Source: Nitrospira lenta (GTDB taxonomy: Bacteria > Nitrospirota > Nitrospiria > Nitrospirales > Nitrospiraceae). From it: a DNA stretch of 44,493 nt. Shown here piece by piece: positions 6,256 to 37,439 of this stretch. The position numbers and the translations under genes are program-made. The notes beneath the pieces are model-generated. The model had not been told where the DNA came from, ran no database searches, and was given only the letters and a program-made list of their open reading frames with translations. Positions within the stretch are counted from its first letter, which is position 1. Every line of letters starts with the position of its first letter. Where the stretch lies: assembly GCA_945905765.1 (NCBI GenBank), contig CAMDPZ010000010.1:1-44493 (forward strand), written 5' to 3'.

Positions 6256-6345
6256 CTGAACGATGAACATTGAACGATGAACAGGGAGACAGAGGTCGTC
6301 AGTTCTTGATTACGTTCAGCGTTCATCATTCATCGCTCATCATTG
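6256..6345 (-). repeat. heptamer-phased inverted repeat between nuoD and nuoG
   Basis: The left arm (6256-6284) consists of TGAACGA / TGAACAT / TGAACGA / TGAACAG. The right arm (6313-6345) is its approximate reverse complement, with units such as TTCATCA and TTCATCG. About 20 of 25 core positions can pair, giving a long imperfect hairpin with a loop of about 28 nt. It fills nearly the whole nuoD-nuoG gap, so it should be transcribed in the operon mRNA. Three further elements of the same design occur at 16196, 37133 and 37356. Confidence 0.75.
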
Positions 6346-6346
6346 T

Positions 6347-7591
6347 CTACCGGTCGCACTCACCCATCACAATGTCGTAGGTCCCGAAGAGCGTGATCGC
6401 GTCGGCGATCATATAGCCCCTGGACATATAGTCGAACGCGCCCATGTGGATGAAAGAGGGGGCGCGAATCTTCAAGCGGTAGGGTTTCCCGCCGCCGACG
6501 CTGACGATATAAAAGCCCAGTTCGCCCTTATGCGCTTCGGTGCCGCAATAGATCTCTCCCGGAGGCGCATCGAACCCCTGGGAGAAAAGCTTGAAATGCT
6601 GGATCATCGATTCCAGATTCGTAAAGACTCGCTCTTTCGGCGGCATGGTGACGCTGGGCACCTCGGCCATAATGGGGCCGTCCTGCATCTGCTCCAGACA
6701 TTGCCGGATGATCTTCACGCTTTCATAAAGCTCCTGCACGCGAATCCAGTACCGGTCGTAGGTGTCGCCGTTCTTGCCGAGCGGCACGCTGAATTCGCAC
6801 TTCGGGTAAGCCGAATAGGGCTCAGCCTTCCGAAGATCGTAGTCGACGCCCGAGCCACGAAGCGTCGGGCCGCTCAGCCCGAAACTCACGGCATCTTCCG
6901 CCGAGATCACCGCCACGCCCTTCGTCCGCGCCACCCAGATCCGGTTCGTCTCCAGGAAGACGATGTACTCGTCGATTTTCGGCGGGAAATAGTCCAGGAA
7001 CTGCTTCAACTTGTCGAGCAGCGACGCGGTAAAGTCCCGCTCAACGCCGCCGATACGGTACCAGCTGGTCGTGAGCCGCGCGCCGCAGAGCTCGTCGAAC
7101 CAATCCAGCAGAATTTCCCGGTCGCGGAAACAATAGAAGAAGACGGTCATCGCGCCGATATCGAGGGCCTGGGTGCCGAGCCAGAACTGATGGCCGATGA
7201 TCCGCTGCACCTCCGCTACGATCGTGCGCAGGTATTCCGCGCGATCCGGCACGGTGATATTCATGAGCTTTTCGACCGCGCGGCAGTAGGCGAAGTTGTT
7301 GTACATCGCGCAGACATAGTCGAGCCGGTCCGTATGGGGAATGAACTGGTGGTAGGTGCCGTCTTCCGCGAGCTTCTCCACGCCACGATGGAGGAATCCC
7401 AGCACGGGGGTCGACTTGACGAGGCGCTCGCCTTCCAGCTCAAGAATGACCTTCAGCACACCATGGGTGCTCGGATGCTGAGGCCCCATGTTGAGCAGGA
7501 GCTCTTCCGTCCGCAGGGTCGGCAGCGTCTCGCTTTCCGGATGGGCCGGATCGACCTTATAGACGGTTGTACGTTGATCTTCAAAAGCCAT
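6347..7591 (-). CDS. nuoD: NADH-quinone oxidoreductase subunit D
   Basis: The 49-kDa subunit of the peripheral arm (414 aa), lining the quinone pocket with NuoB. Family motifs are clear: NMGPQHPSTHGVLKV near the N-terminus, HRGVEKLAE, the HTDRLDYVCAMYNN stretch, and a C-terminus ending in DIVMGECDR. Length is normal for a stand-alone NuoD and it is not fused to NuoC. The ATG at 7591 lies 17 nt downstream of the nuoC stop. After its stop comes the inverted repeat and then nuoG rather than nuoE-nuoF. Confidence 0.97.
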   Translation of the reverse strand: MAFEDQRTTVYKVDPAHPESETLPTLRTEELLLNMGPQHPSTHGVLKVILELEGERLVKSTPVLGFLHRGVEKLAEDGTYHQFIPHTDRLDYVCAMYNNFAYCRAVEKLMNITVPDRAEYLRTIVAEVQRIIGHQFWLGTQALDIGAMTVFFYCFRDREILLDWFDELCGARLTTSWYRIGGVERDFTASLLDKLKQFLDYFPPKIDEYIVFLETNRIWVARTKGVAVISAEDAVSFGLSGPTLRGSGVDYDLRKAEPYSAYPKCEFSVPLGKNGDTYDRYWIRVQELYESVKIIRQCLEQMQDGPIMAEVPSVTMPPKERVFTNLESMIQHFKLFSQGFDAPPGEIYCGTEAHKGELGFYIVSVGGGKPYRLKIRAPSFIHMGAFDYMSRGYMIADAITLFGTYDIVMGECDR

Positions 7592-7608
7592 CGTCTATCC
7601 TACAGGGC

Positions 7609-8112
7609 CTACCGGGCCGTTTCGTCCAGGAATTCGAACGTGTCGCGCCAGCCCTTGCCGCGCAGCGGAAAATCTTTTCGCAGCGGATAGCCTTCGGTGT
7701 AATCGTCCGGCATGAGGATCCGGCGGAGGTCCGGGTGGTTCCGGAAACGGATGCCCATCATGTCGTACACCTCGCGCTCCATGAAGTCCGCGCCCTTCCA
7801 GAGATCCGTCAGCGAATCCACGATGCAATCCGATTCCGGCGTCCTGGTTTTAAGGCGGATGCGCTGGCGCTTCTTGATCGAATAAAACTCGTACACGACT
7901 TCGAACCGCTCGTCATCGTCAGGCCAATCGACCGAACTCACATGCACGATGTAGTCGAAGTCCATGGCTGGGTCGTCATGAAGAAACTGCGCCACCTCGT
8001 GGAGCCGCTCCCGCGGCACGGTCACAGCAAGCTCGCCGCGCCACTCGACGATTTTCGTCAAGCCGACGGGGAACGCATCCTGGAGCTGGCTGATCACGTA
8101 CGGCAATGACAT
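7609..8112 (-). CDS. nuoC: NADH-quinone oxidoreductase subunit C
   Basis: The 30-kDa subunit of the hydrophilic arm, 167 aa. The family signature is visible as EREVYDMMGIRFRNHPDLRR, followed by the typical MPDDYTEGYPLRKDFPLRG ending. It is separate from nuoD, as in many non-proteobacterial complex I operons. The ATG at 8112 is 10 nt after the nuoB stop. No odd features were seen. Confidence 0.97.
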   Translation of the reverse strand: MSLPYVISQLQDAFPVGLTKIVEWRGELAVTVPRERLHEVAQFLHDDPAMDFDYIVHVSSVDWPDDDERFEVVYEFYSIKKRQRIRLKTRTPESDCIVDSLTDLWKGADFMEREVYDMMGIRFRNHPDLRRILMPDDYTEGYPLRKDFPLRGKGWRDTFEFLDETAR

Positions 8113-8122
8113 GGATCGAATC

Positions 8123-8650
8123 CTATACCTTATAGCCCGGCCGGACCTGTTCCGGCTGTTTCAGGAACACGCGCTTCTGCATGATCCGCTCTTGCAATTT
8201 CAGGATGCCGTCGAAGAGCGCCTCCGGCGTCGGAGGGCAGCCCGGCACATAGATATCCACCGGCACAAAACGATCGACGCCCTGGACGACGCTGTAACTG
8301 TCGTAGATATTTCCCGACGTGGCGCAGGAGCCCATCGCAATGACGTATTTCGGCTCCGGCATCTGATCGTAAATTTTCCGGATGACTGGCGCCATCCGGC
8401 GGCAGACGGTCCCGGCCACGATCATCAAGTCGGACTGCCGTGGCGAGGCCCGGAAGACGCCGGCTCCATACCGGTCCATGTCGTAACGTGACGACACGGC
8501 GGCGATCATCTCGATCGCGCAACAGGCCAGGCCGAACGTCATCGGCCAGAGCGAACCCTTGCGGGCCCAATTGACAGCTTTTTCGACCGTGGTGGTCACG
8601 ACGTCCGGCGTGCCATCCTTGTCGTGCCGACCGATTTGGATCAGTCCCAT
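8123..8650 (-). CDS. nuoB: NADH-quinone oxidoreductase subunit B
   Basis: Subunit carrying cluster N2, the last iron-sulfur centre before quinone; 175 aa. The tandem cysteines C43-C44 ([10 protein letters not shown]), C109 (GSCATSGN) and C138 ([10 protein letters not shown]) are the expected N2 ligands. The frame is open upstream to 8869, but that portion is out-of-frame nuoA. MGLIQIG at 8650 is the sensible start because it overlaps the nuoA stop by 10 nt (ATGGGACTGA), a common coupled arrangement. Confidence 0.96.
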
Positions 8651-9024
8651 TCCAGGGCTCCCTTGCGCCAGGCGTAAATATAGGCCACCAGAAACAACCC
8701 GATAAAAATCAGCATTTCGATCAGTCCGATAAACCCGATCTTGGTGAACACCACCGCCCAGGGATAGAGAAAGATCACTTCGATATCGAAAATCACGAAG
8801 AGCATCGCAAAGATGTAATACCGGACCGGGAACGGCATGCGCGCATCGGAAAACGGCTCCGATCCGCACTCATAGGTGGTGAGTTTCTCCGGTTCCGGAT
8901 ACTTGGGTTGGACCAAATAACTGAGCAGTAACGTGACCACGCCAAACGCCAGCGCCACGAAAATAAACAGCAGAATCGGAAAGTATCGGGTTAGGTACTC
9001 AAGGAGTAACTCGAAACCGCTCAT
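8641..9024 (-). CDS. nuoA: NADH-quinone oxidoreductase subunit A
   Basis: First gene of the operon; 127 aa with three predicted membrane helices. The conserved loop [20 protein letters not shown] between helices 1 and 2 carries the Cys and acidic residues typical of NuoA near the quinone entrance, followed by [20 protein letters not shown]. The ATG at 9024 has AAAGG 8 nt upstream. Its 3' end overlaps nuoB by 10 nt. No nuo gene lies upstream, so the operon starts here. Confidence 0.97.
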
Positions 9025-9065
9025 AGGGCTGACCTTTCAACACCTTGCGTACAAATGAGAGCGGG

Positions 9066-9095
9066 ATCTTAGACTCTGGATTGCGGGGATAGCAA
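9066..9095 (-). promoter_or_regulatory. possible sigma-70 promoter of the nuo operon
   Basis: On the minus strand: -35 TTGCTA (9095-9090), an 18-nt spacer and -10 TAAGAT (9071-9066), about 40 nt upstream of the nuoA ATG. The -10 matches consensus at four of six positions. It is the best pair found in the stretch ahead of nuoA. Confidence 0.4.
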
Positions 9096-9197
9096 GCGTC
9101 CAAAGGACCTATAGCCGAGACCCGAAAGTCCTAGACGCGGCTGCCTTGCGCGGGGCGTCACTCGAAAGCAGAGGTCGACCATCCGTCAGAAGAAGCT

Positions 9198-9407
9198 CTA
9201 CGAAGGTTTTTTTGCCTGGTTCGGCGGGGTTGGGGCCATGCGGCCTGAAGGCATACGCAGATGGGAGGGAGGCACCTGGTCGATTTGATCCCACTCAGGC
9301 TCCAGGGACGAAAAGGCCTTGGCCTTCTTCCGACGGTGAATCTGGGTCTCGATACGAGGAGGAGTCTGGCGTGGAGCCTTGTCGGCGGAAGGTCTGTCAG
9401 GAGCCAT
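9198..9407 (-). CDS. hypothetical small basic, proline-rich protein (doubtful)
   Basis: A 69-codon frame starting MAPDRPSADKAPRQTPPRIE and ending NQAKKPS. It is rich in Pro, Arg and Lys, with a basic patch HRRKKAKAF, and has no signal peptide or membrane segment. Codon choice looks coding-like (many G/C third positions), but there is no convincing Shine-Dalgarno site, and two alternative frames are also open on this strand. A run of seven T on the plus strand near its 3' end could shift the frame into a longer C-terminus. No family was recognised; it may be spurious. Confidence 0.35.
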   Translation of the reverse strand: MAPDRPSADKAPRQTPPRIETQIHRRKKAKAFSSLEPEWDQIDQVPPSHLRMPSGRMAPTPPNQAKKPS

Positions 9408-9494
9408 GGCCATTCCCGATCTGTGAGCAATCGATCCACCAGCACCTTAGCATCGGGAGAATTGACGGGTCAACGAGACAAAGCCTCAATATTC

Positions 9495-9522
9495 TTGACA
9501 ATACAGGACTACTTGCTATGGT
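9495..9522 (+). promoter_or_regulatory. sigma-70 promoter for the secreted protein gene
   Basis: A perfect -35 TTGACA (9495-9500), 16-nt spacer and -10 TATGGT (9517-9522). The predicted start of transcription near 9529 leaves a leader of about 31 nt before the ATG at 9560. This rules out the upstream in-frame ATG at 9527 as a start. Confidence 0.6.
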
Positions 9523-9559
9523 TTGAGTGCACTCCTTGTCTTACGGAAGGGCACCCCTC

Positions 9560-10639
9560 ATGGCTTACTATTCAATGAAATCTGTCGTATCTTCCATCGC
9601 CTGGACCCTGGCCCTGCCGCTCTGTTCTTTGGCCGGGACAACAGACCATCTCGCGGCGGTCCGATCCGGAGAACAGGCCCTGGCCTATTCGTCCGGCTCC
9701 ATCCAGCGATCGACTCAGCAAGACGGGGTCGTCAACGTCATTACCGGTGACAATCAGACCACCGGCGATCGCATGATCCTGGGCGGCCAGGACACCCTGT
9801 ACCTCCGGTTGGTGAGTCCAAGCACGGCGGCGCCGGGAGATCTCTTCACGATCTACAAGCGAACACGCAAAGTCTTCCATCCGACCACCGGCCAATACCT
9901 GGGACATTTGGTCAACCGGCTTGCTGTGGCCCAAGTGACCCAGATCGACAGGGACCTGACCACCGTTCAAATCATCCGGACCTACGGAACGGTCTCGCCG
10001 GGCGACCCGGTGATGAAATTCGTCCTCCCGGTTTATGAAGGAGCCACGGATGCGCAGCCTTCCGCCAGCGATGTGGAGGGACGGATTGTGGAGCTTCAGT
10101 CAGACATGGGCACCATGAACCTCGTGGCACAGGGGAATGTCGTCTATCTGGACCGGGGACGGAAAGATGGGATCCGAGCAGGGGATCGCCTGGACGTCAT
10201 CCGGTCAGGAGGGAACCTGCCCCAGCGGGTCGTGGGGGAGATAAAGATCCTGTCCCTGGAAGACCAAACTGCCACGGCGCTGATCACCAAATCGACGTCC
10301 CGCATTCTCAAGGGCGATCGCTTCCGCACGAAAACTCATGCCCCTGCTATCGCGCCGACCTCTCGATCGCCCAAACGATCCCCTGATGTCATGTCTGTGC
10401 CGACGGCGAAGTCGATCGAACAGGACGATGCAGACTATCGCCTGGCGCTGCGCAGTCCCGTGAAAAACAGCGCTCCGATCGCTGCAATGGACGTAACCAG
10501 CCAGGCAACTCCAACGGATCAGTCCACAGTGGACCCCTTCTCTGTACCTGTAACAGCGGTCCAGGACGCGATTCTTCCATCGGCTGGCCAAGAAGACTCG
10601 GCTCAAAGCTCCGAGGTTCCGGCCCTCCCTCTCCAGTAA
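9560..10639 (+). CDS. exported protein of unknown function with C-terminal beta domain
   Basis: 359 aa. The N-terminus MAYYSMKSVVSSIAWTLALP followed by LCSLAG looks like a Sec signal peptide. The middle (about 60-250) alternates short beta-type segments and GD turns (PGDLFTIYKR, SPGDPVMKF, IRAGDRLDVI, LKGDRFRTK). This resembles the small beta-barrel domains found at the C-terminus of some LysM-type envelope proteins, though no LysM motif is visible. The tail (260-359) is Ser/Pro/Ala-rich and probably disordered. The start at 9560 has GGAAGGG upstream and lies correctly behind a promoter. It is followed by a strong terminator, so it is monocistronic. No specific function can be assigned. Confidence 0.8.
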   Translation: MAYYSMKSVVSSIAWTLALPLCSLAGTTDHLAAVRSGEQALAYSSGSIQRSTQQDGVVNVITGDNQTTGDRMILGGQDTLYLRLVSPSTAAPGDLFTIYKRTRKVFHPTTGQYLGHLVNRLAVAQVTQIDRDLTTVQIIRTYGTVSPGDPVMKFVLPVYEGATDAQPSASDVEGRIVELQSDMGTMNLVAQGNVVYLDRGRKDGIRAGDRLDVIRSGGNLPQRVVGEIKILSLEDQTATALITKSTSRILKGDRFRTKTHAPAIAPTSRSPKRSPDVMSVPTAKSIEQDDADYRLALRSPVKNSAPIAAMDVTSQATPTDQSTVDPFSVPVTAVQDAILPSAGQEDSAQSSEVPALPLQ

Positions 10640-10657
10640 ACGCACAGCACATCGTGC

Positions 10658-10696
10658 GGAGGGTTGACGCGATCGCGTCAACCCTCCTTTCTCTTT
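10658..10696 (+). terminator. rho-independent terminator
   Basis: A 30-nt perfect palindrome (10658-10687; arms GGAGGGTTGACGCGA and its complement) followed by TTTCTCTTT. It lies 18 nt after the stop of the secreted-protein gene and just before the priA promoter, so it insulates the two genes. Confidence 0.85.
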
Positions 10697-10698
10697 CG

Positions 10699-10728
10699 TT
10701 GTTCCCACTTTTCTACTGCTGCTACAAT
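10699..10728 (+). promoter_or_regulatory. promoter of priA, predicting a leaderless mRNA
   Basis: -35 TTGTTC (10699-10704), 18-nt spacer, -10 TACAAT (10723-10728). Only five bases separate the -10 box from the priA ATG at 10734, so the expected transcription start coincides with the start codon. There is no Shine-Dalgarno sequence. Confidence 0.55.
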
Positions 10729-10733
10729 GCCGC

Positions 10734-13055
10734 ATGATTTCGACCCAAGCCCCTCCCCGCACGGAGCCTGAGGCTCTGTTCGCAGACGTCATCGTCCCGC
10801 GACATCTGGCAGGCCCCTTTACCTATATCGTGCCCCTGTCGCTCAGGCCGACGCTGCGCATCGGCCATCGCGTGCTTGTGCCCTTCGGTCGCTCCATGCT
10901 CCAAGGAGCGGTCGTCGCTCTTTCCCCTACGCTGCCCTATGGTCTGAGCCCAACACGCCTCAAAGAAATTCACTCATTGCTCCCGGAAGGGACCGCAACC
11001 GATGTGCCGCCCGACCTGTTCCAACTCTCACGGCAAGTAGCCGAGCAATATGTCGCGCCATGGGGACAATGTCTCAGACTGGTGCTGCCTCCAACCGCCA
11101 AGCCACAAAAACCGATCAGCCACTACCAGCTAACAGAGCAGGGGAAGGTCGCAGTTGCGGCGCGAGAACCCTGCTCGGTGAAAGAACGGGCTCTGCTCGT
11201 CAAACTGAATAAAGCGCCGTCGGGACTTCGCAAATCCTCCCGCCGCTCAGGCCTTGCCGACCTATTGCAAGACCTCACGGCGCGGGGATGGGTGCGAGAA
11301 GTTCAGGGCTCACCCTCTGCTCCGACAACGCCGCTTGCCCAACCGTCCTCACAGTTGAGCCTGACTCATACCGACCATGCCGCGCCGCTCTGTTCCGACC
11401 AGGCCCCCCTGTGGGCGGAACCGCTCTTTGAGACATTGAACAATCCTGGCCCCTCCCGGGTTCTGGTGCAGGCTCCCTGGGCCGATCGATTGAAGCTGTT
11501 ACAACAGACCGTTCGACTGATACTCGATCGCGGGCAAACGATCCTGATCCTCGTGGGTGAAGCAGAGCGGGCTCAATGGGTGGCGGACTTGCTCCGTAAT
11601 GATCAACGGAACCTTGCTCCGGCCTGCGTCCATAGCGGACTGTCGGACCAGGCGAAAGCCGAGCTCTGGGATCAGATCCATCGGCAGGTCGTTCGAGTGA
11701 TCGTAGGCACCAGGTCGGCCATCTTCCTCCCGCTGACTGCTATCGGAGCGATGTGGGTCGAGGGAGAAGAAGATGCGGCGTTCAAAGAAGCGCAGGAGCC
11801 CCGCTACCATGCAAGGGACGTGGCCTGGCTGAGGGCCCAGACTGAACGAACGGTGCTGGTTCTAAGTTCTTCCCATCCGTCCCTTGAAACTAGGGCGAGC
11901 GTGGAACAGGGAGGAGTCCTCATCCACAAGTCCATACCATCCGATACGCGGCCCGCCGTGCAGGTCGTGGATCTCCGCAAGCAAGGCTACGGCACGGTAC
12001 TGAGCCAGCCGCTCATTCGGGCCATCCAACAGACGATCAGCCGCAAGGCCGGCGTCCTCCTGTTTCTCAATCGGAAGGGCTATGCCGGCGCCCTCGTCTG
12101 TCGCGACTGCGGCCAGGTGCCCCGCTGTCCCGCCTGCCGCGTAGCCCTCATGTATTCTCGACAGACGGATCGCCTGCTCTGTTCCTATTGCGGAGAGAGA
12201 TCGTCCATCCCGGACACCTGTCATTCCTGCTCCGGCCCCTGCATGCAATTGATTGGAGAAGGCACAGAACGGGTTGAAGAGGATGCCAAGCGATTGTTTC
12301 CCCACGCAGCCGTGATCCGGCTCGATGGAGATACCATGAAGAAACCGGCAGAGGCCGAGGCCCTCTGGCGAAAAATCGACCGAGGGGAATGGGATATCAT
12401 CGTCGGCACACAACTGCTCTTGCGGCGCGGACCGCTTCCGACCATGGGCCTCGTCGGAATTGTGCAAGCGGACGCAGGCCTCAGCGTGCCGGATTTCCGA
12501 TCAGCCGAACGCACCTATCACACCTTGCTCGATGCCGTAGCACTCGCCGGTCCGGCAGGAGCCGGAGGCCAGGTCATCCTGCAAACCTCTCTAGCCTCGC
12601 ACCATGCGATTCAGGCCGTAGCGCAAGATGACGAATCCCTCTTCCTCTCGGAGGAACTGTCCCATCGAGCAGCCTTGGGCTATCCGCCCTCGGTCCACCT
12701 GATCGCCCTCCTCGTCTCGGGGACCGATGGAAACATGGTGCGCGACGCGGCCACAGCCTGGGTGGCTCGACTCACCGCCTGCGCATCGCCTTCCGTGGCA
12801 GGCCAGACCTCTGAGAGAAAGACCCGTCCGATGGCTCCATTAATGGGCAGGCCAGGCCCTCTCACAATCCTCGGGCCAGTCCCCTCTCCTGTGGCAAAAC
12901 TCCGGGGCCGCTATCGGTGGCAAATTCTCGTGAAATCGCTCGAACGACAAACGGGAATCGAGGCGGTGCGGACCACGGTCAAAGACATGGAGCGGACCCA
13001 CCATCGCCGGTCCATTAAGTTCGATGTCGACGTCGATCCGATCGAGATGTGGTAG
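10734..13055 (+). CDS. priA: PriA-type primosomal protein lacking helicase ATPase motifs
   Basis: 773 aa, full length for PriA, the replication-restart protein that recognises stalled forks. The N-terminal 3'-DNA-binding domain (FADVIVPRHLAGPFTYIVP) and the C-terminal domain ending FDVDVDPIEMW are conserved. All eight zinc-binding cysteines are present (about 458-503: CRDCGQVPRCPACR and CSYCGERSSIPDTCHSC). The catalytic motifs are not: Walker A is replaced by VLVQAPWADRLK (about 243), the DEEH box by EGEED (about 343), GSATP by SSSHP, the GTQMxAKG motif by GTQLLLRRG, and the arginine-finger motif QVAGRAGR by DAVALAGPAGA (about 600). It therefore looks like a DNA-binding, non-translocating PriA, as is known for Deinococcus and Actinobacteria. 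Convergent with the next gene, 3 nt apart. Confidence 0.92.
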   Translation: MISTQAPPRTEPEALFADVIVPRHLAGPFTYIVPLSLRPTLRIGHRVLVPFGRSMLQGAVVALSPTLPYGLSPTRLKEIHSLLPEGTATDVPPDLFQLSRQVAEQYVAPWGQCLRLVLPPTAKPQKPISHYQLTEQGKVAVAAREPCSVKERALLVKLNKAPSGLRKSSRRSGLADLLQDLTARGWVREVQGSPSAPTTPLAQPSSQLSLTHTDHAAPLCSDQAPLWAEPLFETLNNPGPSRVLVQAPWADRLKLLQQTVRLILDRGQTILILVGEAERAQWVADLLRNDQRNLAPACVHSGLSDQAKAELWDQIHRQVVRVIVGTRSAIFLPLTAIGAMWVEGEEDAAFKEAQEPRYHARDVAWLRAQTERTVLVLSSSHPSLETRASVEQGGVLIHKSIPSDTRPAVQVVDLRKQGYGTVLSQPLIRAIQQTISRKAGVLLFLNRKGYAGALVCRDCGQVPRCPACRVALMYSRQTDRLLCSYCGERSSIPDTCHSCSGPCMQLIGEGTERVEEDAKRLFPHAAVIRLDGDTMKKPAEAEALWRKIDRGEWDIIVGTQLLLRRGPLPTMGLVGIVQADAGLSVPDFRSAERTYHTLLDAVALAGPAGAGGQVILQTSLASHHAIQAVAQDDESLFLSEELSHRAALGYPPSVHLIALLVSGTDGNMVRDAATAWVARLTACASPSVAGQTSERKTRPMAPLMGRPGPLTILGPVPSPVAKLRGRYRWQILVKSLERQTGIEAVRTTVKDMERTHHRRSIKFDVDVDPIEMW

Positions 13056-13058
13056 AGA

Positions 13059-13502
13059 CTATCGATTCTTGCGGGAACGTTTGGGTTGAGACGGAGGGGG
13101 AGGGCTATCTGGCTCTTCCGATGAAGGAGCGATGTTTGGCCGGCTGGCTCGCTTAAAGAGCCCATAGGCAAACGTGATCCAAAAGACCGCCGAAAAAATT
13201 CCGGTCAGAACGGCTGAGAGAATCGCCCCCATCTGTTCGTCGGTCGGCTCCATCGTGATCGAGCGAACCTGCACCATCGTCATGATCGGCCAGGCCAAAC
13301 TCTCCAGACCCAGCAACAGAGTGGCCCAGGCCCAAACCAGTCCGATCGTCCGCCCCTGCCAGAGCAACAGTCCTGCTGCGGCCCCTGCGACGAAAACGAT
13401 TTCCCAGGGCGAAAACGAGTCCCAGGCCAGCCAGGCGCCCGCTGCCACGACGAGACTGCCCAACAAAGCATTGAGTTGAGGGCTCCACCAACCAATAACC
13501 AT
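13059..13502 (-). CDS. integral membrane protein of unknown function
   Basis: 147 aa from the ATG at 13502 (MVIGWWSPQLNALLG). The frame is also open from a TTG at 13562, which would add 20 polar residues. About four hydrophobic helices are visible (LLGSLVVAAGAWLAW, IVFVAGAAAGLLLW, IGLVWAWATLLLGL, AILSAVLTGIFSAVFWITFA). The C-terminal tail is Pro/Ser-rich and then strongly basic (PKRSRKNR), probably cytoplasmic. Its 3' end is only 3 nt from the priA stop. No family was recognised and the start is uncertain. Confidence 0.65.
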   Translation of the reverse strand: MVIGWWSPQLNALLGSLVVAAGAWLAWDSFSPWEIVFVAGAAAGLLLWQGRTIGLVWAWATLLLGLESLAWPIMTMVQVRSITMEPTDEQMGAILSAVLTGIFSAVFWITFAYGLFKRASRPNIAPSSEEPDSPPPPSQPKRSRKNR

Positions 13503-13586
13503 ACTGAACGTTCTTTTCCGTGAATGGGGGGCCAGTGTGAGTTCTGGCGGCGTAGTTGTCAATGGAGAGGGCGGTGGGAGGAAACG

Positions 13587-13967
13587 CTAAGACTGCAACT
13601 CTGATTGGACTGCGTCGAGGAGCGCCTTCATCTCAAAGGGTTTCTGCAGCGTGCGGTGAGCGCCTAGCATTTTGGCCACGTCCAGAAAATTGAGCGTGCC
13701 AACCATCTCGCTGCCGCCAGTGATCGCGATGACTTTCACATCTGGGAATTCCCGCCGCAGCCTGGATGTAGTTTCTAACCCATCCTGATCCGGCATGAGA
13801 ATGTCCATGATAATGAGGTCAGCCTGGGCCTGCCGGCATTGCGTGAGGGCCTCTTTCCCATCACGCGCTTCCGTGACCTGATAGCCAGCCTGCTCCAATG
13901 TTTCTCGAAGCAAGCGGCGGATCTGGTCTTCGTCATCGACAACAAGAATAGATGGCATCGTCCTCAT
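13587..13967 (-). CDS. single-domain response regulator (CheY-like receiver)
   Basis: 126 aa consisting of one receiver domain. The acidic pocket (VVDDEDQ, D11-D12), phospho-acceptor D55 in IIMDILMPD, T83 in AITGGS and K109 in LQKPF are all present, so it should be phosphorylatable. There is no output domain; it probably acts by protein contact or inside a phosphorelay. No histidine kinase lies nearby. The ATG at 13967 is used; an alternative ATG at 13958 (MPSILVVDDE) is equally plausible. A promoter at 14032-14060 suggests it is transcribed alone. Confidence 0.88.
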   Translation of the reverse strand: MRTMPSILVVDDEDQIRRLLRETLEQAGYQVTEARDGKEALTQCRQAQADLIIMDILMPDQDGLETTSRLRREFPDVKVIAITGGSEMVGTLNFLDVAKMLGAHRTLQKPFEMKALLDAVQSELQS

Positions 13968-14031
13968 GGCTTCAGTGAATGACTCCGCGCCTCGACTACC
14001 TGCACGCTGAGTCTTCTAGGTAATATTTTCG

Positions 14032-14060
14032 ACTGTACCATCTCCCCGGGGAGCAGGCAA
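14032..14060 (-). promoter_or_regulatory. predicted promoter of the CheY-like gene
   Basis: Minus strand: -35 TTGCCT (14060-14055), 17-nt spacer, -10 TACAGT (14037-14032), about 65 nt upstream of the ATG at 13967. Confidence 0.45.
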
Positions 14061-14160
14061 ACAAACAATGCGTTTTCATCAATAGCCAAGGCCCTCTTCC
14101 CCTCGCGAACAGATGCGAATGGAGGCGGCTGGCTCTAGTGAGCGTTGCGCGGACGATGCC

Positions 14161-14817
14161 TCAGGTCTGACGTTTGACGAAGAGGGCGGCGGCTTGCGAC
14201 CGTCGCGAGATGTGCAATTTCTGAAACATATTGGCGAGATAGTTCTTCACCGTCTTGTCGCTGAGCTGCATCGTGGTCGCAATTTCTTTGTTGGTCAATC
14301 CTTCTGCCACCAACGCCAAGACCCGCTCCTCCTGAGGGGACAGGGATTGCCCCCGCACCAGTCCGCCCTGATCCGGCACGGATTTAATCCAGTTCCGCGC
14401 CTGTTGGGTCAGGGCCGGATTCAAAATCGACTGGCCATTGGAGACGGCGCGAATCGATCGAATGAGCAGGCTCGAGTCAATATCCTTGAGGACATAGCCA
14501 TGCGCGCCGGCCAGCACCGCCGCCAGAACGGACTCTTCATCGGCAAAGGAGGTGAGAAAGATGATGCGGGTCGCGGGAAGGCTAGCGAGAATCGTGCGGC
14601 AGGCTTCGACCCCTGAGCCATCCGGGAGCCGCACATCCATCAGGACGATATCAGGCCGGAGACGTTTGGCGGCTCGCACTGCGGCGGCCTTGGACCCGGC
14701 CTCGCCGACGACGGTAATGCCCTGGTGGTTGTGCAAAACGGTCCGCAGACCGACACGAACCACTTCATGGTCGTCGACCAAAAGCAAACGAACCGGCTTG
14801 GCCTTAGCGGCGGGCAT
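14161..14817 (-). CDS. NarL/FixJ-family response regulator
   Basis: 218 aa. The N-terminal receiver domain (about 8-125) has VDDHEV (D15-D16), phospho-acceptor D61 in VLMDVRLPDG, a Thr in FLTSFADEES and a Lys in YVLKDID. The C-terminal LuxR-type helix-turn-helix (about 150-212) reads LSPQEERVLALVAEGLTNKE followed by IATTMQLSDKTVKNY, very like the DevR/DosR group. It is a DNA-binding transcription regulator controlled by phosphorylation. The ATG at 14817 has GAGG 6 nt upstream. No sensor kinase is adjacent, so the partner and regulon are unknown. Confidence 0.93.
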   Translation of the reverse strand: MPAAKAKPVRLLLVDDHEVVRVGLRTVLHNHQGITVVGEAGSKAAAVRAAKRLRPDIVLMDVRLPDGSGVEACRTILASLPATRIIFLTSFADEESVLAAVLAGAHGYVLKDIDSSLLIRSIRAVSNGQSILNPALTQQARNWIKSVPDQGGLVRGQSLSPQEERVLALVAEGLTNKEIATTMQLSDKTVKNYLANMFQKLHISRRSQAAALFVKRQT

Positions 14818-15276
14818 TCAAAACCTCGCTGGGCAGATCACGCACGACACACGTTCCTCGTTGATTTTCGAGAAAACGGACACCGGCCTCCGATCTTCTG
14901 CGCGCGCACCATCATATTATATTGGGCATCCCCTGCCGGTCCCTTTGACAACATCCGAAGTGAACCCGCACCGTTGCCGCGAATGCTCAGCCGATACAGC
15001 CTGCGAGGCGCACCCACGCGAGCTGATCTTGCGCGAGCAATGTTACCATATGTCGGAACGCCGTCGGCAAGTCTAGCCCTTGAAGCGGGCCAAAACTCAG
15101 CTCCTCAATAGAAATGCCAGGCGATCGATCTTCATCCTGCAGGCTTTGACCCACGGTTCAGATCAAGGCTCTGACCTGGTCGGCGCACGATGCGAAGTAA
15201 CTTGAGGAAGAGGAGCGGCGCTCGGCCCCGGCAACTCGATCACAGGAAAGAGTCGCCGGGAAGAGCGAACTTGAGT
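14818..15276. other. 459-bp intergenic region upstream of the NarL-type regulator
   Basis: No convincing gene is visible. A perfect -10 consensus TATAAT is present on the minus strand (14921-14916), about 100 nt before the regulator start, but no -35 hexamer lies at 16-18 nt; the nearest, TTGTCA, is 24 nt away. If used, the promoter would probably need an activator. The rest shows no clear hairpin or repeat. Confidence 0.5.
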
Positions 15277-15360
15277 TGGTGCCGAAGGCGGGACTTGAAC
15301 CCGCACGGCTTGCGCCACACGCCCCTCAAACGTGCGTGTCTGCCATTTCACCACTTCGGC
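15277..15360 (-). tRNA. tRNA-Leu (anticodon GAG)
   Basis: Type II tRNA of 84 nt on the minus strand, with CCA encoded. The acceptor stem GCCGAAG pairs with CTTCGGC, the anticodon loop is TTGAGGG giving anticodon GAG, there is a long variable arm, and the T-arm contains GGGTTCAAGTCCC. It reads CUC/CUU leucine codons. Confidence 0.95.
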
Positions 15361-15393
15361 ATTAGGAGGTCACTCAGACGACGAGGGAGAGGC

Positions 15394-15423
15394 ATTATAG
15401 AAGTGGGGCAAAATCCTTGTCAA
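15394..15423 (-). promoter_or_regulatory. strong promoter of tRNA-Leu(GAG)
   Basis: Minus strand: perfect -35 TTGACA (15423-15418), 18-nt spacer, perfect -10 TATAAT (15399-15394), about 34 nt before the tRNA. Its -35 overlaps almost completely the -35 of a divergent plus-strand promoter. Confidence 0.75.
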
Positions 15424-15445
15424 TCAATAGAGTGTCCGGTAGAAT
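15417..15445 (+). promoter_or_regulatory. predicted promoter of the HAD hydrolase gene
   Basis: -35 TTGTCA (15417-15422), 17-nt spacer, -10 TAGAAT (15440-15445). It is divergent from the tRNA-Leu promoter and the two share five bases of their -35 boxes (palindromic TTGTCAA/TTGACAA). Transcription should start near 15452. Confidence 0.55.
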
Positions 15446-15479
15446 CGGTCGGCAGATACTCACCGGATCCTCCAACGTT

Positions 15480-16190
15480 GTGCAGAGCCACCAGATCCTG
15501 ACTTCTACATGTGACAATGTCGCTGAACGACGGGCCAAAGGGTCCGTCGCGGCATTGTTCGACGTCGACAACACGCTCCTGCCAGGAGAGGCCAGCGAAA
15601 TACGGTTTTTCCGGTTTCTCTGGCGGCGCGGCCTGGTGGGCTGGGGCGAATTAAGCCGGACGATGGCCTGGCTGGCCGGGCATGTGCCCCCCTTCTCGCT
15701 GCACTCGCTCCGGGAACGAAAAGTCTATTTGACGGGCAAGCGGCCCGCCGACATTGAATCCTATGCGAAGGAGTTCTGTCAGGCGGAGATGATCGACCGG
15801 CTGGCCCTGCAGGGCCGCGCCAAGCTGGACGCCCATCGACGGGCCGGACATCAGCTGATTCTTGTGACCGGCGCGCCGGATTTTTTAATTGCGCCCCTTG
15901 CAGCATTCTTGAACGTGCCTACAGTTTTCGCGGCAAAACCGGAACAGCACAATTCCCTCTATACCGGCGCCTTGATCCCCCCCCTGCCCTATGGCCGTGG
16001 TAAACGTGAAGTGATCCTCGCCCATGCTCAGGAAATGGACCTCGATCTGGCCCGGTCCTACGCCTACGGAGACAGCCCCGGCGACCGCGACCTCCTGGAA
16101 CTGGTCGGCTACCCCCTGGTCGTCAACCCGATTCGAGGCATGAGACGCATCGCGCGCCGCAACGGCTGGCCGATCACGGAATGGACATGA
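15480..16190 (+). CDS. HAD-superfamily hydrolase, subfamily IB (PSP-like)
   Basis: 236 aa from GTG at 15480. Motif I is ALFDVDNTLLP (nucleophile D28, acid D30), motif II is the Thr in ILVTGAPDFL, a basic residue lies in GRGKREV, and motif IV is YGDSPGDRDLLELVG. The pattern and alpha-helical cap match the SerB-like IB group, often annotated HAD-IB or phosphoserine phosphatase-like; the true substrate is unknown. The frame is open from a TTG at 15417, but that lies inside the promoter -35, so the later GTG fits better. There is no clear Shine-Dalgarno site. An inverted repeat follows its stop. Confidence 0.82.
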   Translation: MQSHQILTSTCDNVAERRAKGSVAALFDVDNTLLPGEASEIRFFRFLWRRGLVGWGELSRTMAWLAGHVPPFSLHSLRERKVYLTGKRPADIESYAKEFCQAEMIDRLALQGRAKLDAHRRAGHQLILVTGAPDFLIAPLAAFLNVPTVFAAKPEQHNSLYTGALIPPLPYGRGKREVILAHAQEMDLDLARSYAYGDSPGDRDLLELVGYPLVVNPIRGMRRIARRNGWPITEWT

Positions 16191-16195
16191 GCATG

Positions 16196-16280
16196 AAGTC
16201 ATCGAGTCGAAACGTCGTCACGTCCTCACGTCTCAGACCTTCGACTTTCGACTTTCAAACTTGACGACATTCCGACTTTT
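16196..16280. repeat. heptamer-phased inverted repeat before queE
   Basis: Tandem heptamers TTCGACT / TTCGACT / TTCAAAC / TTGACGA run from 16240 to 16267. The left arm at 16203-16220 (GAGTCGAAACGTCGTCA) is the near-perfect complement of the right arm at 16261-16278, with two mismatches over 16 bases. It has the same architecture as the elements at 6256, 37133 and 37356 but a different primary sequence. It ends about 15 nt before the queE ATG. Confidence 0.65.
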
Positions 16281-16295
16281 TCACACGAGCATGAC

Positions 16296-16931
16296 ATGCG
16301 AGTAACTGAGATCTTCCATAGCATTCAGGGCGAATCGAGCTACGCGGGACAGCCCTGCGTATTTGTGCGGCTGACCGGCTGCCCGCTCCGCTGCACCTGG
16401 TGCGACACCGACTACGCCTTTTACGGAGGGCAGGACTGCTCGATCGATGAGGTCCTGGCGAAAGTGCAGACTTATGGGTGCCGTCTCGTGGAGGTCACGG
16501 GAGGGGAGCCGCTTGCGCAGACTGAGAGCCTCCCCCTCATGGCCAGGCTCTGCGATGCCGGCTACACCGTCCTCCTGGAAACCAGCGGCACCATCGATAT
16601 CGCGCCGGTCGACCCCCGGGTCCATATCATCCTGGATGTGAAATGCCCGGGAAGCGGCATGACAGAACGGATGCATTGGCCCAATCTTGCCGCGCTCACC
16701 GCCAAGGATGAAGCAAAATTCGTCCTGGTCGATCGAGCCGATTATGATTGGGCCAAGGAGATTCTTGTCCACCATCATTTGGCCGACCGCTGCTCGGTGA
16801 TTTTCAGTCCGGTCTTCGGCTCACTCGATCTGCGCCAGCTGGCGGAATGGATCCTGGCCGATCGGATGCCGGTCCGTTTTCAGTTACAACTGCACAAATA
16901 CATATGGGCGCCGGATATGCGCGGAGTGTGA
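16296..16931 (+). CDS. queE: 7-carboxy-7-deazaguanine synthase (radical SAM)
   Basis: 211 aa. QueE converts 6-carboxytetrahydropterin to 7-carboxy-7-deazaguanine in queuosine biosynthesis. The opening HSIQGESSYAGQPCVFVRLT is characteristic of the family, followed by the radical-SAM cluster site CPLRCTWC (C29, C33, C36) and the SAM-binding EVTGGEPLAQ. The C-terminus QLHKYIWAP also matches QueE. No queC, queD or queF is nearby. There is no evident Shine-Dalgarno site ahead of the ATG; the preceding sequence is the inverted repeat. pepA follows 22 nt downstream. Confidence 0.95.
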   Translation: MRVTEIFHSIQGESSYAGQPCVFVRLTGCPLRCTWCDTDYAFYGGQDCSIDEVLAKVQTYGCRLVEVTGGEPLAQTESLPLMARLCDAGYTVLLETSGTIDIAPVDPRVHIILDVKCPGSGMTERMHWPNLAALTAKDEAKFVLVDRADYDWAKEILVHHHLADRCSVIFSPVFGSLDLRQLAEWILADRMPVRFQLQLHKYIWAPDMRGV

Positions 16932-16953
16932 CAACTCGAACAAGGAGACGTGA

Positions 16954-18465
16954 ATGAAGATCATGCGGGTCAAATCACAGGTTGGAAAGGCGGAGACGGC
17001 ATCGACAGATGTGTTGGTGCTCACGCATTGCGAGGGAGAGGGTTTGGCCAAACAGGATGCGGCCCTGCTTGATCGGGCCCTCGGAGGCTCGCTGCGCAAG
17101 CTGCTCCAATCCAAGGAGTTCGAAGGCAAGGCCAACGAAGTCTTGCTCTATCACACCCAGGGTAAGGTGCCGGCCAAGCGGCTGATCCTGGTCGGCTTGG
17201 GCAAGAAGAGCACGGTCACGCTGGAGACGATCCGGCAGGCGATGGGATCGGCCGCGAAACGAGTCCGGCAGGCAAAAGTCGGGTCCTTTACCGTGGCGCT
17301 GCCGACAGTGATGCCTAGCGGGATGTCATCGCTCGAGGTCGCGCAAGCGATGGTCGAGGGCGCGATCCTGGGCAGTTATCAATTCACCGTCTATCGAAGC
17401 GAGGCCGCCTCGGATCATGCCGTCGCGGAGATGAAGGTGCTCATCCCGCAAACCAGTCAGCTGCGACAGGTTGCCGAAGGGATCCGCCGCGGCGTCGCCA
17501 CGGCAGAGGCCACCGTCTTCGTCCGAGACCTCTGCAATCATCCCTCCAACGTCCTGACCCCGACCATGGTGGCCGATGAAGCGAAGGCCATCGCCAAGGC
17601 TGAAAAGATCACGATCAAGATTCTCGAACAGAAAGATATGGAACGCTTGGGCATGGGGGCGCTGCTCGGCGTGGCGCGGGGAAGCCAGGAGCCGCCCAAG
17701 TTCATCATCCTAGAATATAACGGAGCCAAGAAAAAAGACGAACGTCCGGTCGTGCTGGTCGGAAAGACGATCACCTTCGACACGGGCGGAATCTCGCTGA
17801 AGCCTGCCGAAAATATGGAACATATGAAGGCCGATATGACGGGCGGAGCCGAAGTCCTCGCCTCGATCAGAGCGGCGGCCCGGCTCAAACTCCCCTTGCG
17901 GCTTATCAGTATCCTGCCTGTGGCGGAAAATATGCCGGGCGGGCGGGCGATGAAGCCAGGCGATATCGTCATGACGCTGGCGGGAAAGACCGTCGAGGTC
18001 CAGAACACGGACGCGGAAGGCCGGCTCATCCTGGCCGACGGCCTCGCCTATGCGATGCGCTACAAACCGGCGGCCTTGATCGACATTGCGACCCTCACGG
18101 GAGCCTGCGTGGTGGCGCTCGGCCAATTTGCGATCGGGATGTTCGGGAACGACGTGACCCTTAAGGAACAGGTGCGTCGGTCCGGGCAGAAGGCCGGCGA
18201 ACGGGTCTGGGAAATGCCTCTCTGGGAAGAATATTTCGAACAGCTCAAGAGCGACGTCGCCGACATGCGCAACATCGGAGGCCGGGGCGGCGGCATGATC
18301 ACCGCGGCGCTCTTTCTAAGCAAGTTCGTGGGGAACTGCCCCTGGGTTCACCTCGATATCGCCAGTACGGATTGGAGCGAACGGGAGCGGGCCTACGTAC
18401 CGAAGGGACCCTCCGCGATTGGAACCAGACTGTTGCTGCAATACCTGATTGATCGGAGCCTCTAA
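16954..18465 (+). CDS. pepA: cytosol (leucyl) aminopeptidase, M17 family
   Basis: 503 aa, full length. PepA removes N-terminal residues from peptides using two divalent metals. The catalytic C-terminal domain shows VGKTITFDTGGISLKPAENM and KADMTGGAEV (metal ligands and active-site Lys), and the family signature NTDAEGRLILADGL. The N-terminal domain (1-170) is the less conserved hexamerisation/DNA-binding part. The ATG at 16954 has AAGGAG 7 nt upstream. nagZ begins 2 nt after the stop, so the two are likely co-transcribed. Confidence 0.96.
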   Translation: MKIMRVKSQVGKAETASTDVLVLTHCEGEGLAKQDAALLDRALGGSLRKLLQSKEFEGKANEVLLYHTQGKVPAKRLILVGLGKKSTVTLETIRQAMGSAAKRVRQAKVGSFTVALPTVMPSGMSSLEVAQAMVEGAILGSYQFTVYRSEAASDHAVAEMKVLIPQTSQLRQVAEGIRRGVATAEATVFVRDLCNHPSNVLTPTMVADEAKAIAKAEKITIKILEQKDMERLGMGALLGVARGSQEPPKFIILEYNGAKKKDERPVVLVGKTITFDTGGISLKPAENMEHMKADMTGGAEVLASIRAAARLKLPLRLISILPVAENMPGGRAMKPGDIVMTLAGKTVEVQNTDAEGRLILADGLAYAMRYKPAALIDIATLTGACVVALGQFAIGMFGNDVTLKEQVRRSGQKAGERVWEMPLWEEYFEQLKSDVADMRNIGGRGGGMITAALFLSKFVGNCPWVHLDIASTDWSERERAYVPKGPSAIGTRLLLQYLIDRSL

Positions 18466-18467
18466 TC

Positions 18468-19586: not shown

Positions 19587-19631
19587 AGCAAGCACAACTG
19601 GGCTTTAGCCGGGGCGAGAGATGGAGGGGTT

Positions 19632-23345: not shown

Positions 23346-23348
23346 CGG

Positions 23349-29947: not shown

Positions 29948-29958
29948 ACGTCCCCCTG

Positions 29959-32124: not shown

Positions 32125-32555
32125 ATGGTGGGGTTATGCTGAAGTCGCCTCCAGCATGATGAGCAACTAAGCGAAATAACTCAATAGCGTTCGTCTTTTG
32201 TACCGTTGGATGCCTCCTACTGTCAACCCATACTCCTGGGGGAGAGGACCCATGGTAAACAGGCCCTGAGTCGGCCCAAGAGCGGAGAACGATTGAATTT
32301 TGCAGGCTTTCGACCGAGCCCCATCAGGCCAACTACGCACGACTCCTGGCCCAAGTCAGTGATTGGTAGCACCCTCATCTTATGGGGGGTATAATACCGA
32401 CGAGGTTGCTCCATCGCCTCAAACCCTGCAAGCGTGACACAGTGACACGAGGTGAAGACGTGAGTCGTGGAACGAGCGGGGAATAGCACGAAACTCCCTC
32501 TCCTCCGCACATTCAATGGCTTCCCCTGAAGCCCTGTTCCGTAAGGAGGTGCACG
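32125..32555. other. 431-bp intergenic region
   Basis: Holds the divergent promoter of the tRNA-tig operon (32197-32226) and a perfect TATAAT on the plus strand at 32390-32395 without a good -35, a possible promoter for the HEAT-repeat gene at 32556. Around 32434-32468 there is a single GTGACA-rich stretch resembling one arm of the heptamer repeats. No gene could be supported. Confidence 0.5.
32197..32226 (-). promoter_or_regulatory. predicted promoter of tRNA-Leu(UAG)-tig-clpP-clpX
   Basis: Minus strand: perfect -35 TTGACA (32226-32221), 18-nt spacer, -10 TACAAA (32202-32197), about 65 nt before the tRNA. No comparable promoter was found between the tRNA and tig. Confidence 0.55.
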
Positions 32556-34995: not shown

Positions 34996-35038
34996 CGCAT
35001 CGCTAAAGAAACAACGGAAAGCGACATGTTCCTCATTC

Positions 35039-36901: not shown

Positions 36902-36928
36902 CTGCGAATCTCCCTATGAACTCCTGGC

Positions 36929-36957
36929 AGTATAGGAAGGGGACCGGGGAGGGTCAA
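36929..36957 (-). promoter_or_regulatory. sigma-70 promoter of the asmA-like gene
   Basis: Minus strand: -35 TTGACC (36957-36952), 17-nt spacer, -10 TATACT (36934-36929), about 28 nt upstream of the ATG at 36901. Confidence 0.65.
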
Positions 36958-36986
36958 TGACATGGCGATTCGCGCTGGTTGTCAGC

Positions 36987-37015
36987 TTGCCGCTCACCAG
37001 ACCGCGTGCTAAGAT
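36987..37015 (+). promoter_or_regulatory. promoter of tRNA-Ser(GGA)
   Basis: -35 TTGCCG (36987-36992), 17-nt spacer, -10 TAAGAT (37010-37015), followed by a GC-rich start region and the tRNA 22 nt later. Confidence 0.55.
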
Positions 37016-37037
37016 GCCCCTTCGTAAAAATCGGTGC

Positions 37038-37127
37038 GGAGAGGTGCGAGAGTGGTCGAATCGACATGCTTGGAAAGCATGCGTCCCAGCAATGGGACCG
37101 TGGGTTCAAATCCCACCCTCTCCGCCA
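37038..37127 (+). tRNA. tRNA-Ser (anticodon GGA)
   Basis: Type II tRNA of 90 nt with encoded CCA. Acceptor GGAGAGG pairs with CCTCTCC, the anticodon loop TTGGAAA gives GGA, there is a long variable arm (GTCCCAGCAATGGGAC), and the T-arm reads GTGGGTTCAAATCCCAC. Confidence 0.96.
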
Positions 37128-37132
37128 AAAAT

Positions 37133-37232
37133 AGTGATAGGTGATGGGTCATGAGTGATACCGTCATGCGAGGAAGGCGATCGGGGCGTTTCTCGTCTCT
37201 CACGTATCACCGATCACTCATCACGTGTCACC
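37133..37232. repeat. heptamer-phased inverted repeat between tRNA-Ser and ffs
   Basis: Left arm (37133-37160): units GTGATAG / GTGATGG / GTCATGA / GTGATAC. Right arm (37197-37232): TATCACC / GATCACT / CATCACG / TGTCACC, approximately complementary. A loop of about 36 nt separates them. Same design as at 6256, 16196 and 37356. Confidence 0.75.
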
Positions 37233-37239
37233 GGTCAAC

Positions 37240-37340
37240 GGGGCTGGGCCCTGTGCAACAGAACCCTGTGAACCCCGCCAGGTCCGGAAGGAAGCAACGG
37301 TAAGCGGTCAGTTCTGTGTGCCGCAGGATCACCTGGCCCC
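37240..37340 (+). ncRNA. ffs: signal recognition particle RNA, 4.5S type
   Basis: About 101 nt. The ends GGGGCTGGGCC and GGCCCC pair, and the conserved apical domain CCAGGTCCGGAAGGAAGCAA contains the GGAA tetraloop and the asymmetric loop bound by Ffh. Location directly upstream of dnaX is the common bacterial context. No own promoter was seen, so it may be processed from a transcript starting at tRNA-Ser. Confidence 0.92.
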
Positions 37341-37355
37341 ACTTAGCTTTATTCC

Positions 37356-37439
37356 GTGAGGCGTGAAACCTAAGACGATACGACGTGCAAGGTCACGCCT
37401 CTCAACGTTTCACATCTACCGTTTCACGCCTAACGTCTT
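37356..37439. repeat. heptamer-phased inverted repeat abutting the dnaX start codon
   Basis: Left arm (37356-37377) GTGAGGCGTGAAACCTAAGA.. pairs with the right arm (37406-37439), which contains TTTCACA / TCTACCG / TTTCACG / CCTAACG. TAAGACG and CGTCTTA mark the two outer ends. The last base before the dnaX ATG belongs to the element. Confidence 0.7.

Follow-up and report, generated by a model that had tools for sequence, protein, structure and literature searches.

Four intergenic inverted repeats in a 44,493-nucleotide stretch of the Nitrospira lenta genome (the whole of contig CAMDPZ010000010.1, hereafter the window) were analyzed together with similar elements in related genomes. We propose that they are site-resident inverted repeats on the 3′ sides of genes, in which the tandem structure, with a period of 7, 8 or 9 nucleotides (nt), and the complementarity of the two arms matter and the letters do not; we put the probability of this reading at roughly 0.43. 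The tandem phase, the inverted arms, the location at gene 3′ ends, the persistence at given sites with different unit classes and the replacement of one class by another across species were all demonstrated. Related species often keep an element at the same place yet swap its whole sequence, a pattern that suggests conservation of shape and not of letters.

Excess of phased inverted repeats

Inverted repeats were searched in 589 gaps of 40-700 nt from three Nitrospira samples: 444 kb of the window's own genome (G000; the window, contig C10, plus the initial 20 kb from each of 20 further contigs) and 400 kb from each of two congeners, G001 and G019. The G000 assembly amounts to 2.33 Mb in 115 contigs and is 90% complete. 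Genes were predicted with a simple codon-usage caller, arm periodicity was scored against shuffling with a phase called at z ≥ 3.5, and three dinucleotide shuffles of each gap were the control. Seventy-three of the 317 intergenic inverted repeats, about one per eight gaps, were phased at 7, 8 or 9 nt, compared with 3 of 560 in the shuffled gaps. The periods were distributed as 41 elements at 7, 7 at 8 and 25 at 9 (1, 1 and 1 in the shuffled gaps), while all other periods between 4 and 13 gave 9 real and 5 shuffled cases. An earlier note, made from the window sequence, had staked its proposal on a genome-wide excess of period-7 inverted arms; the excess was found (41 of 317 versus 1 of 560), and the units turned out to be not heptamers alone, since 8- and 9-nt units occur as well. 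A sequence pattern of one unit class had 89 matches in the window's own genome and 10 for its reversed control. None of the four inverted repeats in the 20 gaps of a 50-kb E. coli stretch was phased.

The unit classes in these samples are many and include TGAAACG, TGATGAG, TGAACGA, AAAAGTA, TGATAGC, TCAGCTT, 8-mers of the CGTCTTCA type and the 9-mers GGTTTATTT. Period-9 elements are numerous in G019, with 21 in 400 kb; one period-9 hairpin class (GGTTTGTTT) with the recurring core GGTTGAACGAAACTAACC is abundant in that genome (loci L161-L180).

The four elements of the window, none of which was assigned a strand, are as follows:

6254..6344, element 1: TGAACGA-type heptamer arm (6257-6283) and TTCATCG/TTCATCA-type arm (6315-6344), identified from Tandem Repeats Finder (TRF) arrays, the phased inverted-repeat search and orthologs
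16202..16288, element 2: inverted repeat mainly of 8-nt units (ACGTCCTC / AAAGTCG-type), between the preceding + strand gene and queE
37134..37231, element 3: GTGATRG and TCACNNN heptamer arms, between tRNA-Ser and the small signal recognition particle (SRP) RNA gene
37355..37435, element 4: CGTGAGGCGTGAAAC ... GTTTCACGCCTAACG arms, between the SRP RNA gene and dnaX

The four best 70-nt segments for lags 7+14+21 across the 44,493 bases all came from elements 1, 3 and 4, which consist of head-to-tail 7-nt units. The phase scoring placed the inverted arms at 6254-6335 (TGAACGn), 37134-37231 (TGATAnG) and 37355-37435 (ACGTTAn), and the RNA-fold z values of these three elements were -3.95, -4.43 and -4.22, respectively. 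Element 2 is a real inverted repeat, in which 28 of the 42 aligned positions pair. Its best period, however, is 8 nt, and its RNA-fold z of only -0.68 is little better than that of shuffled sequence; the label "heptamer" is therefore wrong for it, and the heptamer inverted-arm design that the earlier note saw in all four elements is shared by elements 1, 3 and 4. All four are pairs of inverted arms, and none is a direct array lacking a partner arm. Elsewhere in the window, a heptamer-like stretch at 32430-32475 (GTGACACAGTGACACGAGGTGAAGACGTGAGTCGTGG) without an obvious partner arm lies upstream of the gene at 32556 and is perhaps a decayed element. Another palindrome family, REP-like and unphased, is found at 20571-20637 and 40825-40915 (CTGCGCGC..CGAACGAG / GCGCGTT..GCGAGCA) and also in G001 and G019.

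Persistence at orthologous gaps and replacement of whole alleles

When the 23 gaps of the window were compared with those of six relatives (z ≥ 3), phased elements were present in 7 of 15 comparisons at the three gap sites that are phased in the window and in 0 of 70 elsewhere (p = 1.3e-6). Across the genus, 54 of 89 sequences from the four sites held a phased hairpin at the threshold of 3.5, compared with about 1 of 267 shuffles, although the species counts are not independent because alleles are inherited. The sequences above the threshold were 13 of 20 at tRNA-ffs, 14 of 22 at ffs-dnaX, 11 of 23 in the gap before queE and 16 of 24 at nuoD-nuoG. The scoring covered the family of the window; orthologous loci of other families (L073-L080, L104-L110 and L135-L140), several of which have gaps too short for an element, were left out. 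In one of them (L140), inspection by eye showed an inverted repeat that looks phased (CGTATCTCGTGAAGCG .. CACGAGATACGGACGACGAGATAC) at the orthologous site, the gap after nuoD of G044, which belongs to a different family of the order. Units of the TTTAACG/CGATTAACG type, with TAA replacing TGA, were seen in G043, G046 and G051, also from another family of the order, and in several places they again form pairs, - followed by +.

The unit classes at the four sites, labeled by eye, change repeatedly on quick trees of the flanking genes. There were 13 changes among 24 species with 6 labels at nuoD-nuoG (mean of shuffles 14.6, with 34 of 200 shuffles as low), 10 among 22 species with 5 labels at ffs-dnaX (shuffled mean 13.2), 10 among 23 species with 4 labels in the queE gap (mean of shuffles 10.2, with 117 of 200 as low) and 7 among 20 labeled species with 6 labels at tRNA-ffs, for which no shuffle was run. 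At least one member above 3.5 was found for 16 of the 21 class labels. Alignments were made at nuoD-nuoG only, the classes of the other sites being counted and not aligned. Members of the same class there are homologous across the genus, with a mean identity of 75.7% (58-98%), while the identity between different classes, 53.1%, equals that of shuffled sequence (0.531 versus 0.531). This bears out the earlier note's statement that the elements share an architecture, differ in units and are not copies of one sequence. Between sites, class D at nuoD and class D at ffs-dnaX are 44% identical and the corresponding class C elements 54% (compared across species), which is background. The homology of a class within its site and the background identity between sites therefore indicate turnover by whole-allele replacement and not by transposition.

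The region of element 1 illustrates this replacement. The 150-nt block that contains the element is 97% identical between G000 and G003 and 56% identical between G000 and G001, whereas for the two adjoining blocks the identities are 93 and 91% with G003 and 97 and 97% with G001; the coding blocks flanking the gap place G000 closer to G001 and G015. Thus, non-homologous alleles lie between conserved flanks and are incongruent with the flank tree. The simplest account of these sequences would be that old, site-specific, non-homologous alleles are swapped as units in roughly gap-sized tracts. Alternatively, old alleles may have been kept through several splits. The earlier note proposed to compare orthologous gaps for unit turnover; at nuoD-nuoG the recent change takes the form of swaps of whole, old, site-specific alleles and not of gradual unit change.

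The neighboring genes are:

3547..6240, - strand: NuoG-like gene; best NCBIfam match formate dehydrogenase alpha TIGR01591, NuoG TIGR01973 third, both under the curated cut-offs
6347..7591, - strand: NuoD-like gene, flank of element 1; NCBIfam TIGR01962, above its cut-off
16296..16931, + strand: queE, flank of element 2; TIGR04349
37038..37127, + strand: tRNA-Ser(GGA)
37242..37341, + strand: small SRP RNA (ffs); RF00169
37440..39275, + strand: dnaX, DNA polymerase III gamma/tau

The NuoD-like and NuoG-like genes both lie on the - strand, and element 1 takes up most of the space that separates them. The start of the NuoG-like gene was taken at 6240, as given by the gene caller used, rather than at 6270 within element 1.

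Spread across phyla

A hairpin of TGAGTNC units was scanned for in a species-genome collection, which gave at least 120 stretches, 80 of them listed. By record titles, the matches listed come from at least eight phyla; the titles among them include Cyanobacteria, Acidobacteria, Planctomycetes, Chloroflexi/Thermomicrobiales, Proteobacteria, Deltaproteobacteria, Bacteroidota, Elusimicrobia, Hydrogenedentota and Nitrospira, and many of the records are metagenome-assembled. The design is thus not confined to the window. The 80 listed stretches were used for the mismatch and arm-sharing analyses described below and for a phase analysis of other gaps on the same contigs (7 loci below 4 kb left out, gaps containing the TGAGTNC pattern removed). 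Among these 197 gaps, 27 elements were phased at 7, 7 at 8, 4 at 9 and 9 at other periods, while two shuffles of the same gaps gave 1 at period 7, 1 at period 9 and 3 with some other period. About 4 of the 38 phased elements are TGAGT variants missed by the exact pattern, and the rate is not a phylum average because the contigs were picked for bearing one such hairpin. In 25 of 61 relatives the TGAGTNC hairpin was found 105 times in its normal polarity and never inside out (forward column summed, overlapping registers counted separately).

A broader claim is that many phyla share one kind of DNA element defined by geometry alone, namely an inverted pair of arms that consist of 7-9 nt units and lie behind genes. 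Such elements would draw on a small recurring unit vocabulary (e.g., TGAGTNC) and be made by a common copying process, and their letters would be replaced as whole alleles while the site requires the shape. We consider this claim unlikely as a whole. Viral carriage as the source of the spread was rejected: the IMG/VR collection gave 12 TGAGTNC hairpin stretches and 0 inside-out ones, versus at least 120 in genomes. One 41-kb viral-labeled contig (IMGVR_UViG_3300005578_000008; L350, L353, L355, L357) carries many TGAGTNC hairpins and is possibly a misclassified bacterial contig.

Location at gene ends

Of the phased elements in the Nitrospira samples, 52 fall in the 426 codirectional gaps, 17 in the 71 convergent gaps and 4 in the 92 divergent gaps. 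The preference for convergent over divergent gaps (17/71 versus 4/92) has p = 2.7e-4, and two of the four divergent cases, in the tRNA/SRP region, are not truly divergent because RNA genes were not called. Within codirectional gaps, 39 of 52 elements are closer to the stop codon, and the median distances in the three samples are 4-9.5 nt from stops and 11-57 nt from starts. The TGAGTNC hairpins of 120 contigs from the scan, except 4 contigs below 3 kb, were distributed as 76 in codirectional, 13 in convergent and 9 in divergent gaps, 12 inside called genes and 14 at contig edges (gap totals 305, 55 and 68, respectively). Their nearness to the stop is clear, with a median of 15.5 nt from stops and 59 nt from starts.

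By a strict test, U-tract terminators are scarce at these gene ends. A hairpin followed by a T run was found at 2 of 185 gene ends in the window's own genome and at 2 of 179 and 0 of 196 in the other samples, versus 5 of 18 in the 50-kb E. coli stretch. Terminator-like sites in positions 1-20000 of the window showed no excess (17 versus 16.2). U-tract terminators were rejected as an identity for the elements: elements 1 and 2 are absent among these sites, and by eye no U tract lies behind elements 3 and 4.

In period-7 elements the arm first met by the ribosome stops 2.1 of the three frames, the other arm 1.24 and shuffled arms 1.62, and in 32 of 41 TGA comes first. In many classes the 5′ arm carries TGA and would also stop stray translation. 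Three-frame stops were rejected as the general cause of the period, the tendency being seen in period-7 elements and absent at periods 8 and 9.

RNA or DNA

The elements could be mRNA 3′-end or intercistronic stem-loops, i.e., terminators without a U tract or RNA stabilizers, selected as RNA. The 3′ location with more elements in convergent than in divergent gaps, the good predicted RNA folds of three of the four window elements and the scarcity of U-tract terminators all fit this explanation, as do the changes on both sides of the stem, of the compensatory kind, in 2 of 24 pairs of class A at nuoD. Pairing kept in mRNA should give more G-U pairs than A-C mismatches on the sense strand. One test leaned that way (G-T 130 versus A-C 100, p = 0.056, 52 elements), and two others did not: the counts were 62 versus 68 (p = 0.66) in 51 TGAGTNC elements and 86 versus 102 (p = 0.27) at the four orthologous sites, sense strand. 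RNA-level selection judged by a G-U excess was thus not supported, one of three tests leaning toward it. Furthermore, the sense strand folds better than the antisense strand in only 33 of 89 sequences (p = 0.03 in the opposite direction), and selection on RNA leaves the 7-9 nt phase unexplained. The mismatch counts and the strand comparison therefore indicate that complementarity is kept with little regard to strand, which leans toward the expectation for DNA-level copying or DNA structure, even if there may be a weak RNA signal in the pairing. Selection as RNA is, in our judgment, a somewhat unlikely explanation.

Origin of the arms

The two arms of a TGAGTNC element share variants at N more than do the arms of other elements in their set (0.597 versus 0.434, permutation p = 0.003), as determined for 44 elements in nine sets, each set being a genome except one that pools Nitrospira. 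The order of the variants was matched between arms no better than shuffled order, and register-exact copying was rejected; because of this, only a sharing of unit composition is claimed. The shared variants fit the local slippage with copying suggested by the earlier note, and the order of the units weakens templated copying in its strict form.

A pure mutational by-product, in which slippage that favors steps of about 7 nt, together with quasi-palindrome correction, would leave arrays wherever they are tolerated, i.e., behind genes, is consistent with the shared variants, with mismatches that lack a clear strand bias and with units that vary between elements; polymerase slippage has also been invoked for the excess of heptamers in bacteria (idea cited in PMC4692102). 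Nevertheless, each site has four to six classes and 16 of 21 labels have a phased member, against a density of about one element per eight gaps, no phased element was found in the 70 comparisons at other gaps, and the TGAGTNC hairpins occur in one polarity only (105 versus 0). We regard this explanation as distinctly unlikely.

Least probable, and in our view very unlikely, are small mobile palindromes of the repetitive extragenic palindrome (REP)/REPIN or miniature inverted-repeat transposable element (MITE) kind, whose remnants or copies landed behind stop codons: one period class can abound in one genome, as in G019, and some phased hairpins appear by eye to be nested in another long hairpin family, but for classes D and C no measurable similarity apart from the unit itself was seen between sites (the same holds by eye in other phyla), the alleles of a class at a given site are homologous from species to species, and no Y1 transposase, of the REP-associated tyrosine transposase (RAYT) type, was found in G000, G001, G003, G015 or G020, while 20 of 41 genomes searched have one. 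The position bias of REPs is similar to that of the phased elements. RAYT-driven REP elements were rejected for the window's own genome, in which, at 90% completeness, PF01797 had 0 matches. In L143:14962-15126, L147:10711-10857, L176:13289-13439 and L178:4302-4439 a long hairpin family (GCAGGATGCTGAAAAAGTCCGCCAGC..) has an inner part that by eye seems to be replaced by a heptamer-phased hairpin.

Weighing the proposed site-resident shape

According to the explanation that we favor, site-resident inverted repeats whose shape matters, the tandem units would arise by slippage at the DNA level and would be copied from arm to arm by hairpin-templated correction, so that both arms stay matched. Each gap would own a few old, structurally equivalent alleles, exchanged between species by very short recombination tracts, and we propose that the swaps are tolerated because any hairpin of this design serves. 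The sequence-independent structural role raised in the earlier note fits phased hairpins that persist at their sites despite sequence replacement; as for the role itself, we infer that the elements act at the DNA level where genes end, as a boundary or as a hairpin/cruciform, U-tract terminators being few in these genomes.

Several observations weigh against this explanation. Thirty-five of the 89 orthologous sequences, including 12 of 23 at queE, miss the phase threshold; some of these are by eye degenerate or short versions, one (L060, tRNA-ffs) has no element and one (L126, nuoD-nuoG) has another palindrome. A hot spot free of function could likewise yield persistence at sites. The assignment of classes by eye is a weakness of the class counts, and at ffs-dnaX the classes cluster on the tree, since shuffles gave as few changes in 1 of 200. 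Some unphased gaps turn over fast too: when 18 unphased window gaps of G000 are compared with those of G001, the identity is 84-96% for 11 and below 70% for five. In the TGAGTNC hairpins of other phyla the depletion from divergent gaps is not significant (9 of 98 hairpins versus 68 of 428 gaps, p = 0.11; p = 0.068 on the 80 listed loci alone). The E. coli control has a lower G+C content, at which T runs are commoner. The polarity is not universal, as TCA comes first in 9 of 41 period-7 elements, the first of the mismatch tests leans toward RNA, and the agreement of unit order within the arms, no better than that of shuffled order (0.588 versus 0.566, standard deviation 0.027), weakens strict templated copying.

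Comparison with known systems

Small dispersed repeats of Nostoc, including hairpin elements within tandem heptamers, were reportedly described by Elhai et al. in 2008. The heptameric simple sequence repeats (SSR) or short tandemly repeated repetitive sequences (STRR) treated in PMC4692102 include GGGAATC in Xanthomonas, GGGGA(C/T)T in Nostoc and repeats in Calothrix. The passages available from that source state that heptamers are over-represented in many bacteria, with slippage as an idea and little detailed study, and cite the idea that heptamers reflect the length of DNA contacting the polymerase. Like the present elements, these repeats are intergenic tandem 7-nt units, some as inverted repeats, that mostly lie between the same genes in two related species and vary in length and sequence. 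Unlike them, they are described there as G-rich arrays of a single unit, whereas here many units and 8- and 9-nt classes coexist and classes are replaced wholesale. Inverted arms are the rule here, though the elements were searched as inverted repeats.

The paired "global regulator binding sites" of classes 1-3 in Geobacter metallireducens (PMC2700814) are tandem 7-8 nt pairs on opposite strands with several classes per genome, an arrangement also found in the present elements, and in the Geobacter proBA gap a sister species holds a different repeat (PMC2700814). The Geobacter repeats are read as protein binding sites, and the relevant passages of that paper contain no analysis of allele replacement. 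The TAACTGA direct repeats of the Beggiatoaceae (PMC4679880) are likewise intergenic heptamers that recur in unrelated phyla and whose placement is constrained by stop codons, a related point having been made by MacGregor in that paper; unlike the present elements, they are, as described there, direct repeats of one unit, mostly just upstream of starts, with one indirect repeat only.

REPs and REPINs (PMC3116915, PMC12306157) are also extragenic palindromes. As portrayed in those sources they form one RAYT-linked sequence family, unlike the present elements, which in the comparison made share no sequence beyond the unit and whose own genome lacks a RAYT-type gene; classes D and C are at background, and loops and flanks differ by eye. 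The switched intergenic regions, or horizontal regulatory transfer, analyzed with Piggy (PMC5890482) resemble our sites in having non-homologous alleles between conserved genes, incongruent with gene trees. A common design of the alternatives is not described in the passages available from that report, whereas here most class labels have a phased hairpin. The available part of the Nitrospira genomes paper (PMC5767232) does not mention intergenic repeats.

Biological meaning

Each ingredient, i.e., heptamer repeats, the paired tandem repeats of Geobacter and intergenic switching, is already in print; no description of the combination was found in the open-licence literature searched. The sites repeatedly swap sequence yet mostly keep a phased hairpin and are therefore a testable case in which shape is separated from sequence, with evidence that leans to the DNA rather than the RNA level. 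In a genus where U-tract terminators are scarce, the elements may serve to mark where genes end. That hairpins of one and the same unit occur in at least eight phyla, among the matches listed, has to be explained by a common process of generation or by wide transfer, and the heptamer puzzle is made testable by these elements.

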